DNA of 63,550 nucleotides from Alistipes sp. (GTDB lineage: Bacteria; Bacteroidota; Bacteroidia; Bacteroidales; Rikenellaceae), in assembly GCA_017437045.1 (NCBI GenBank), contig JAFSBY010000033.1, forward strand, positions 1 through 63,550, given 5' to 3'. This document shows positions 29,643-32,051 of the stretch, piece by piece; the first letter of the stretch is position 1, and each line of letters opens with the position of its first letter. A program made the translations under genes and the position numbers. The notes under the pieces are model-generated. The model saw only the letters and a program-made list of their open reading frames with translations. It did no database searches and had not been told where the DNA came from.

Positions 29643-30386
29643 TTATTCCATCGGGAAGATGCGCACCTCGGTGATCCCTTCGAGCGCAGCTTTGAGGGCA
29701 TCGAGATCGGTCTTTTGCTCCACCTGACCGTAATGGTAGGGGTAGAAGATCGTCGGACGGATCGCCTTGACCGCCTCCGTGGCTTGCTCGACGGTCATCG
29801 TGTAAGGCTGATTGACCGGCAGGAAGGCGATGTCGATCTCCTTCAGGGCCTTCATCTCGGGCGTCAGCTCCGTATCACCGGCAATGTAGATGCGGGAGCC
29901 GCCCAACGTGAGGATGTAGCCGCAATCTTCGCGCTCCTTGGGGTGGAATTTGGTGTGTCCCTCGGAGGTGTTGTACGCGGCAACGGCCTCGATGCGCAGC
30001 CCCTCAATCGGGTTGGCCACGCTGCCCGGACGCATCGTGTGGCAATTCATCTCGAAAGCCTCGGCCGAGGTGCGATCGCAGACTACCTCCGATTGGCGCG
30101 TGGTGAGCTCATCGACCGCCTGACGATCGAGGTGGTCTGAGTGGTGGTGGGTCACCACGACAACGTCGGCTTTCGGCAGCCGCGAATAGTCGGCATGTTC
30201 CATCACCGGATCGATGTAGATCCATTTGCCGCCATACTCAATGGCCAGCGAGGCGTGGGCGTAGAAGTGGAAGGTGAGCTCCTCGCCTGCGCGGGTCGTG
30301 ATCGTGTCGCTCGGATATTGGGGAGCCTTGCCCCCGAAGAGTGCACTGAAAAAAGACATAATCGTAATAAAATATAGGGTTTTCAT
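29643..30386 (-). CDS. Metallo-beta-lactamase-fold hydrolase (UlaG/YtkL-like)
   Basis: A 247-residue MBL-fold protein with the metal motif VTHHHSDHLD (H-x-H-x-D-H type, about residues 79-88), an earlier FYAHASLAIEYGGKWIYIDPVM, a central 'SRIYIAGDTELTPEM' Asp ligand and the final 'IFYPYHYGQ' His. This is the small UlaG-like group of metal-dependent hydrolases with unknown or lactonase-type substrates. From ATG 30386 the N-terminus MKTLYFITIMSFFSALFGG may be a signal or membrane segment. An alternative ATG at 30359 gives 238 residues and fits better a -7-like TATCTTGC at 30397-30390. It is divergent from the TIR gene, sharing a short promoter region. Confidence 0.85.
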   Translation of the reverse strand: MKTLYFITIMSFFSALFGGKAPQYPSDTITTRAGEELTFHFYAHASLAIEYGGKWIYIDPVMEHADYSRLPKADVVVVTHHHSDHLDRQAVDELTTRQSEVVCDRTSAEAFEMNCHTMRPGSVANPIEGLRIEAVAAYNTSEGHTKFHPKEREDCGYILTLGGSRIYIAGDTELTPEMKALKEIDIAFLPVNQPYTMTVEQATEAVKAIRPTIFYPYHYGQVEQKTDLDALKAALEGITEVRIFPME

Positions 30387-30524: not shown

Positions 30525-31748
30525 ATGCAATACGACGTTTTTATCAGCTATTCGCGCAAAGATACGGCTACGGCCGATCGCATTGCGGCTGCATTTGATC
30601 GGGCCGGAATAAGCTATTTTATCGACCGTCAAGGCATTGGCGGTGGTTTTGAGTTTCCGGTCGTCTTGGCCGAGGCAATCCTTTCGAGTCGGATTGTGCT
30701 GTTTTTGGGAAGCAAAAATTCTTATGAGTCGAAGTTTACCAATGCCGAGCTGACCTTTGCCTTCAACGAAAAGCCGAAAAATTCGATCCTGCCCTATATT
30801 ATTGATGGCAGTACGATGCCTCCGGCTTTGCGCTTTGTCTTCTCGAGTATCAATTGGCGGACGCTTGAAAGCCATCCGATCGAACCGGCCTTGGTGGAGG
30901 ATGTGTTGCATCTGCTGGGTCGCGAGCGGCGCGATGGCAAGGCGGAGGCCGAGCGGAGAGCGCGTGAGCAAGCCGAACAAGAACGAGTAGCCCGCGAGCA
31001 GGCCGAGGCAGAGCGTCGTGCTAAAGAGCAGGCTGAACGCGAGCGCAAAGAGCGCGAAGAACGTGCGGCTCGAGAAAAGGCCGAACGGGAGCGGATAGCC
31101 CGAGAAAAAGTCGAAGCGGAGCGTCGTGCTAAAGAGCAGGCCGAACGCGAGCGCACAGAGCGTGAAGAGCAGCAGTTTCGGTTGAATGGTCGGGGGCGTT
31201 TTGGGACATTCCGCGTTGGAGACTATTATGATGATGGTCAAAAAGAGGGTGTTGTTTTCGAGGTAGATAGTACAGGTCGTCACGGTAAGATTGTGAGCCT
31301 GCAAGAAACTACAGCGGTGTGGGCTGCAGATAAAAATTTTGGGACATGGTTACGGTCGGATAATCCCTGCAAACTGTGGTTAGGACTGAAGGATCGGGAA
31401 GATGGAAGGAGGAATCTGCAACGGATTATGCAGCTTGATAATTGGGAAAAACGATATCCTGCGTTTGGTGTTTGTGTGGGGATGGGCCCCGAATGGTATC
31501 TTCCGGCGGTTGATGAGTTGAAACGATTGGCTGAAAGTTCGGTGTATGACGCTGTAAATTTTACATTGTCAGAAAAAAGAGGTCGGCGACTCTTGGCCGG
31601 AAGAGAGTATTGGTATTGGTCCTCGACAGAGAGTGACGATGCGACTTCGGGCTATCTCTGCGCACAATGTGTCCGGATGATTACGAGCGATGTGGTTGAT
31701 GACTTTGCCTATAACTCCGGCTATGTTCGTGCCGTAGCAGCATTTTAG
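30525..31748 (+). CDS. TIR domain - charged helical linker - FISUMP/C-type-lectin-like protein
   Basis: A 407-residue protein from ATG 30525. Residues 1-132 are a TIR domain: YDVFISYSRKD, GISYFIDRQGI, IVLFLGSKNSYESKFTNAEL, ILPYIIDG. Glu75 in NAEL is at the position of the catalytic glutamate of TIR NADases. Residues about 133-216 are almost only E, R, A, K and Q and should be one long helix or coiled coil. Residues about 222-407 match DUF1566/FISUMP-type C-type-lectin folds: 'GPEWYLPAVDELKRL', 'YWYWSSTESDD' and the terminal 'SGYVRAVAAF'. There is no signal peptide, so it is probably cytoplasmic. TIR proteins of this kind act in phage defence or signalling; here the lectin-like end would be the sensor. 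No partner enzyme is adjacent, only the divergent MBL-fold hydrolase. Confidence 0.88.
   Translation: MQYDVFISYSRKDTATADRIAAAFDRAGISYFIDRQGIGGGFEFPVVLAEAILSSRIVLFLGSKNSYESKFTNAELTFAFNEKPKNSILPYIIDGSTMPPALRFVFSSINWRTLESHPIEPALVEDVLHLLGRERRDGKAEAERRAREQAEQERVAREQAEAERRAKEQAERERKEREERAAREKAERERIAREKVEAERRAKEQAERERTEREEQQFRLNGRGRFGTFRVGDYYDDGQKEGVVFEVDSTGRHGKIVSLQETTAVWAADKNFGTWLRSDNPCKLWLGLKDREDGRRNLQRIMQLDNWEKRYPAFGVCVGMGPEWYLPAVDELKRLAESSVYDAVNFTLSEKRGRRLLAGREYWYWSSTESDDATSGYLCAQCVRMITSDVVDDFAYNSGYVRAVAAF
31011..31166 (+). repeat. Internal 48-bp direct repeat in the TIR-gene linker
   Basis: Bases 31011-31058 and 31119-31166 are nearly identical (both begin GAGCGTCGTGCTAAAGAGCA), 108 bases (36 codons) apart, so the repeat is in frame and adds a helix segment. 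Confidence 0.8.
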
Positions 31749-31815
31749 ACCGGCAAAAAAAAATGCTTTGGCGAAAAAATCCTGCAAAAAAGATTGTCGG
31801 TTGCAAAATTTTGTG

Positions 31816-31856: not shown

Positions 31857-32051
31857 ATGCCAAAAATGAAAACTAATGCCGCGGCGAAGAAGCGTTTTAC
31901 CTTCACCGGCACAGGAAAGATCAAGCGCAAGCACGCTTATCACAGTCACATCCTGACCAAAAAGACGACGAAACAGAAGCGTAACCTCTGCTATTCGAGC
32001 ACCGTTTCTGCGGCTGATGAGGCCAAAATCAAGAACCTGTTGGTGAAATAA
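31857..32051 (+). CDS. rpmI: 50S ribosomal protein L35
   Basis: A 64-residue highly basic protein with the L35 pattern [36 protein letters not shown] (quoted in part: [27 protein letters not shown]). It binds 23S rRNA in the large subunit. It precedes rplT by 118 bases; in most bacteria infC comes directly before it, but here the preceding gene is the TIR protein and no infC is in the window. Confidence 0.96.

Follow-up and report, generated by a model that had tools for sequence, protein, structure and literature searches.

Diversity-generating retroelements (DGRs) of cyanobacteria vary the lectin ends of kinases, of orthocaspases and, less often, of TIR-like proteins, and they act on remote sites too (PMC7517822; this and all other papers given by PMC number are cited for excerpts). 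Such DGR systems have been tied to multicellular bacteria (PMC10907252), and the literature also covers ternary conflict systems (PMC7159879) and Bacteroides tip pilins (PMC12632263). A survey of the human microbiome found DUF1566 more often than any other domain in DGR targets and gives 4EPS as a structural relative (PMC4159848), and DUF1566 is reported with C-type-lectin-like (CLec) folds (PMC6642488). Gut phages carry DGRs as well, one acting on its own tail fibre (PMC12135933) and one with a target near the phage's own defence genes (PMC8008677). Here we examine a gene at positions 30525..31748 of a 63,550-nucleotide stretch of Alistipes sp. (assembly GCA_017437045.1, contig JAFSBY010000033.1, positions 1 to 63,550; hereafter the window), which joins a TIR domain to an end that relatives in the same genus diversify.

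The window gene, its paralogues and its putative function

The initial annotation, made from the sequence alone, had proposed a TIR domain, a charged helix and a lectin-like end in one gene, and Pfam TIR_2, the structure model and the family matches bear this out. The parts are the following:

30525..31748, + strand: whole gene, TIR - charged helix - Lcl_C/DUF1566-like end, 407 amino acids plus stop
30525..30917, + strand: TIR domain, residues 1-131 (Pfam TIR_2 at 5-115; model and PDB TIR matches at about 1-135)
30747..30749, + strand: codon of Glu75, invariant in 17/17 aligned sequences
30936..31184, + strand: charged E/R/A/K helix, residues 138-220 (a single helix in the model; composition)
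31194..31745, + strand: Lcl_C/DUF1566-like end, residues 224-407
31659..31733, + strand: 25 codons, CAQ to VRA, homologous with what is the DGR variable region in the paralogues (template match counts)
31734..31793, + strand: 3' end of the gene and flank, the site of [TC]GCTTTT and TTAG[GA]CTT in diversified relatives, with neither present here

TIR_2 scores 65.5 bits against a cut-off of 28 (8.5e-18, residues 5-115), and the Pfam TIR model, at 24.3 bits, also passes its curated cut-off of 21.3. Solved TIR folds, including SPARTA and AbTir, match the structure model. Glu75, which the initial annotation places at the position of the NADase catalytic glutamate, is kept in all 17 aligned sequences. 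The same or a similar TIR module stands in L188, L186/L031, L191 and L044 before repeat-type ends, Sel1 repeats, Sel1 plus Lcl_C, and a coil plus an FHA-like end (by eye for the most part; the Sel1 in L191 comes from Pfam). The charged helix spans 83 residues and is continuous in the model. FISUMP, the type first suggested for the C-terminus, was dropped as a family name, as no FISUMP model matches the window protein and the end is Lcl_C-like instead. Among the fold matches is 4EPS, found with the whole protein model, of which the end was one part. TvpA and Mtd do not appear in that comparison, but TIR structures take up its rows, so that their absence carries no information; the C-terminus of 4EPS resembles TvpA (PMC4159848). 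Searched by itself against PDB sequences, the window protein yields helix-type matches only. It has no membrane segment and is thus probably entirely cytoplasmic.

The window protein as query gives 19 matches in its own genome (2.22 Mb, 92.8% complete), itself included. Fourteen other open reading frames (ORFs) there bear the end at E < 1e-4: seven kinases (named by eye), two TIR proteins and five short secreted-type forms. The two TIR proteins, L011 and L013, have a membrane segment; the window protein is a membrane-free TIR member. Most of the own-genome kinases with the end, like most of the kinase relatives, carry a membrane-like segment before it by hydropathy, which would place the same domain outside the cytoplasm there. 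L021:4-1476, on contig C44 of this genome, encodes part of a kinase that shares the membrane segment and the coil but has a FISUMP-looking end where the others have the Lcl_C one (by eye).

With modest confidence we lean towards a soluble, single-gene TIR receptor-effector. Its end would bind an intracellular ligand, which may be a phage product, and this would bring the TIR domains together; the clustered TIRs would cleave NAD+ or make a signal, which in turn would stop growth. The NADase activity and the defence role are predictions from sequence. Several points weigh against this reading. The end scores 23.3 bits with Lcl_C, under the curated cut-off of 34.9; relatives reach the model (the paralogue L011 at 39 bits), and the end is therefore called Lcl_C-like. 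The closest full-length relative, L030, has a linker rich in Pro, Lys and Gln, and L187, L189 and L190 have short linkers; as close relatives have a different helix or none, a role as spacer is likelier than one as conserved relay, and the earlier idea that the helix passes the signal is weak. PADLOC, run at this locus only, matches none of the 10 ORFs neighbouring the gene; the context is not defence-like, and a defence island was rejected for the window copy. TIR domains, finally, can be scaffolds without enzyme activity.

A scaffold or regulator of ordinary cell signalling, acting for instance with receptor kinases of the same family and having neither NAD+ cleavage nor an anti-phage role, is the first alternative to weigh, and we find it rather unlikely. 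Seven of the 14 other ORFs with the end are kinases, most of them with a membrane segment by hydropathy, and the genomic context is of housekeeping type, as this alternative would have it; set against it are the glutamate at the catalytic position, invariant in 17/17, and a fold that resembles active NADase TIRs such as AbTir.

Hypermutation signature among the relatives

Seven ORFs of the own genome (six kinases and the TIR protein L011) have, between CAW and YVRAV, codons that vary at positions 1 and 2 with a constant third base. Over all pairs of the seven, the scaffold is 88.6% identical at positions 1 and 2 and 71.4% at position 3, and the variable stretch 52.6% and 95.2%. Ordinary coding selection does not reverse codon positions in this way, so that rewriting at the A of a template of AAC/AAT codons is indicated; by their codon pattern, the seven tails carry the mark of a DGR.

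The template was first guessed from these tails, and the search pattern was built from them as well. It finds seven places in the own genome and none in the reversed control; a copy of the template was not found in the own genome by this pattern. In the sister genomes G101 and G106 the template CAWNVNMNNGNTNNNNKNNNNYVRAVSEF adjoins reverse transcriptase genes and reads as guessed. It has 44 non-A and 31 A positions, and all matches were counted against this one template of four read out; the genus holds further templates, that of G006 being another version. The seven own targets match at 37-41 of 44 non-A and 12-20 of 31 A positions, L019_6148 of the same genome at 38/44 non-A with three gap columns, and the other six own ORFs counted at 20/43 to 27/44. 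Among TIR relatives the non-A matches of 44 are 43 for L192_5650, 41 for L190 and L272, and 39 for L195 and L196, followed by L035 (37), L185 (36), L192_6821 (32), L030 and L197 (30 each), L187 (29), L189 (28) and L191 (22).

Our genus sample comprised 180 genomes, among them the own one. When at most three mismatches are allowed, the pattern occurs at 100 places (hand-counted) in 37 of the 180 genomes and at none in the reversed control; two of these places are the templates of G101 and G106, and 98 are variable regions, some within phage genes. The pattern leaves the A positions free, and an independent test was made on the 36 bases that follow and that it does not constrain: over 99 places (all but the G106 template, with that of G101 included) letters at template A match in 953/1683 cases (57%) and the others in 1652/1881 (88%). 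Domains were tallied after 23 of the 99 places had been set aside for being truncated or short; the remainder make up 72 proteins, a few of them open at the far end. At E <= 0.001 Pfam finds Lcl_C in all 72, Pkinase in 23, PEGA in 17, CarboxypepD_reg in 15 and TIR_2 in 10, and more rarely FGE-sulfatase (4), LRR_5 (3) and Trypsin_2 (1). Evidently, members of the end family in this genus sit on Ser/Thr kinases, on TIR proteins and on secreted-type proteins, many with the DGR diversification signature. Hydropathy places a membrane-like segment before the end in three of the 10 TIR carriers (L011, L205 and L196) and in none of the other seven. One carrier, L272 of G029, has the layout of the window protein (TIR, a long E/R/A/K stretch and the end, with no membrane segment) together with a fitting variable region; it is cut by the fetched stretch. 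Past its diversified end comes another charged stretch, after which the end itself recurs. In addition, the variable-region genes of L217, L230, L250, L268, L273 and others run off contig ends, as if hypervariable repeats had broken the assemblies and hidden arrays.

The variable regions share a 3' signal: [TC]GCTTTT ends 81 of the 99 places and TTAG[GA]CTT follows shortly downstream in 63, both being present in 56, and TTAG[GA]CTT occurs in 68 of 11,608 control windows (0.6%). The template carries GAATTT where the targets have GCTTTT, a difference that resembles the initiation of mutagenic homing pair (IMH/IMH*) of known DGRs. A hairpin of at least six pairs follows the variable region at only 26 of the 99 places, within the stretch searched, and we claim none. 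Three genes spoil an otherwise clean picture, in that template fit and 3' signal do not always go together: the own TIR gene L013:5098-6528 has both 3' motifs at a template fit of 25/44, and perhaps derives from another template; L035, from another family, fits at 37/44 non-A without the 3' signal; and L185 fits at 36/44.

The window copy and the writer of the variable regions

Against the same template the window gene matches at 28/44 non-A and 10/31 A positions (own targets 37-41 and 12-20). Both [TC]GCTTTT and TTAG[GA]CTT are missing from its 3' end, and the NNC/NNT register is not present in its tail. The own genome, at 92.8% completeness, gives no RVT_1 match and no match to two DGR reverse transcriptases. 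On misfit, missing signal and missing register, the window gene was ruled out as a current target of the template found, and it would work as a member of fixed specificity. The initial annotation's link between this end and DGRs thus holds for relatives in the genus, including the TIR proteins L011, L190, L192, L195, L196 and L272, and is not supported for the window copy itself. We consider it improbable that a different template writes the window gene as a DGR target. The homologous stretch of the window gene is the one diversified in relatives, other templates exist in the genus, and L013 shares the 3' signal at a tail fit of only 25/44; the window tail, by contrast, shows neither the shared signal nor the register, and its 28/44 non-A matches were counted against one of four templates read out.

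A tree was built from 50 end scaffolds without the variable stretch (input: 44 of the 72 carriers plus 14 others, with 8 carriers dropped for missing anchors). The window scaffold stands next to L185 amid diversified members, with no starred branch and on a long tip. The six longest tips all fall among the 14 non-diversified rows and none among the 36 diversified ones; these tip lengths would suit a copy that has left the DGR regime, and are no proof of it.

The gene lies in housekeeping-type surroundings (names by eye), between:

29643..30386, - strand: divergent neighbour, metallo-hydrolase-like, from an inner ATG
31857..32051, + strand: downstream neighbour, rpmI

We located rpmI in 26 of 31 genomes searched. 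In three of these 26 (G008, G012 and G007) the hydrolase-like gene directly adjoins rpmI and the TIR gene is absent, which makes the TIR gene an accessory insertion whose site is vacant in these three relatives; in the other 22 (own genome aside) the stretch fetched yielded no hydrolase-like gene. An infC-like ORF lies upstream of rpmI in other members of the order and was not seen there in this genus (by eye; window 31857, loci L280-L305). A functionless fusion, in which a mobile TIR module met a spare end by chance or which is decaying, might be suggested by the many different ends of such modules, the long branch and the accessory insertion; it is very improbable given an intact frame, conserved motifs in both domains and a layout that recurs in L030, L185, L187, L189, L190 and L272.

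As to the writer, both cassettes scanned with PHROGs (two cassettes, ten proteins in total) sit among phage genes. In G006, Avd (phrog_3206), template and reverse transcriptase lie close to terminase genes (phrog_38, 1.5e-99), and in G101 a baseplate hub (phrog_4930, 1.4e-80) is encoded on the contig of the reverse transcriptase. Relatives of the enzyme are encoded at 18 loci of viral contigs, and one of these (L320), 82% identical, has a template of the same protein reading; as exact DNA the template occurs at no place in viral contigs, nor was its DNA found in phage records, and the variable-region pattern occurs once in viral contigs, in a short phage-like ORF (by eye). Plasmids hold only distant reverse transcriptases, all below 60% identity (best 38.9% among the matches listed). 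Seven of the 37 carrier genomes match this reverse transcriptase at 1e-6, six of them near full length, and 26 of the 37 have no RVT_1 match. G040 (98% complete, 14 variable regions) has as its sole RVT_1 match a 289-residue frame without a DGR-type motif, and G041 has the enzyme and four variable regions, with no template recognised next to the enzyme. Given the missing RVT_1 in 26 of 37 carriers and the case of G040, the writer does not sit in the chromosome as a stable neighbour; a phage may do the writing, binning may have lost the element, or it may no longer be there. It is a tentative and rather doubtful proposal that a phage-borne DGR writes, in trans, the sensor ends of host receptor kinases and TIR proteins, with the window gene outside this regime as a fixed sensor. 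Counting against a phage writer, genomes with a matching template hold few variable regions by the pattern (one in G101, none in G106 and, the template aside, two in G111), the own tails depart from that of G101 at a few non-A positions, so that the exact writer is unseen, and the assemblies look like metagenome bins, which are prone to losing mobile elements.

Comparison with known systems

TIR effectors need a sensor, and here the presumed sensor lies in the same chain and comes from a family that is diversified in relatives through targeted hypermutation, which parallels, in bacteria, the anticipatory diversity of receptors. With a fixed copy like the window gene, ligand finding and tests of TIR activity can rely on a protein that stays the same. 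ThsB of Thoeris, SPARTA and AbTir are TIR effectors, and the window protein resembles them in its TIR fold, in weak matches to TIR-only models and in structural matches to SPARTA and AbTir; unlike them, it has the sensor in the same chain and falls far under the cut-offs of whole-system models. Thoeris, for which ThcB4 reached 36.3 bits against a cut-off of 220, and other named defence systems were ruled out, since the matches concern the TIR part only and lie far below cut-offs where these exist.

The carriers are Bacteroidota with named relatives from animal gut samples, whereas the published link is to multicellular bacteria (PMC10907252). The 98 variable regions were found from the pattern alone, whereas a global DGR survey, by its own account, would not detect remote targets (PMC8144416). 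Among the matches listed in the open-licence literature, we found no report from Bacteroidota of receptors with a TIR or kinase part whose DUF1566 end is varied by a DGR. Our set shares with the DUF1566-type targets of DGRs in gut bacteria and phages (PMC4159848, PMC6642488) the domain family at the diversified end and the relative 4EPS; the excerpts of these two papers make no mention of TIR or kinase parts for such targets. With the DGR conflict systems of Thiohalocapsa (PMC10907252) it has in common sensors that a DGR diversifies and that are linked to TIR, kinase or NTPase parts. In the excerpts of that paper they come with NACHT/STAND, MoxR-vWA or other parts, whereas ours are single-chain receptors in a gut-associated genus, where such partners were not sought systematically.

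Closest are the cyanobacterial DGR proteins (PMC7517822), which likewise have signalling N-termini, a lectin-like end with its last codons rewritten, and dispersed remote targets with paralogues. Ours differ from what is excerpted there in belonging to Bacteroidota, in the Lcl_C/DUF1566-like end, in a window copy that is not diversified and in the lack of RVT_1 in 26 of 37 carrier genomes. As lectin ends varied by DGRs have already been published for kinases and TIR-like proteins of cyanobacteria (PMC7517822), the initial annotation's 'undescribed system' no longer applies: the Bacteroidota set is a variant of the published one, and the window gene its non-diversified member.
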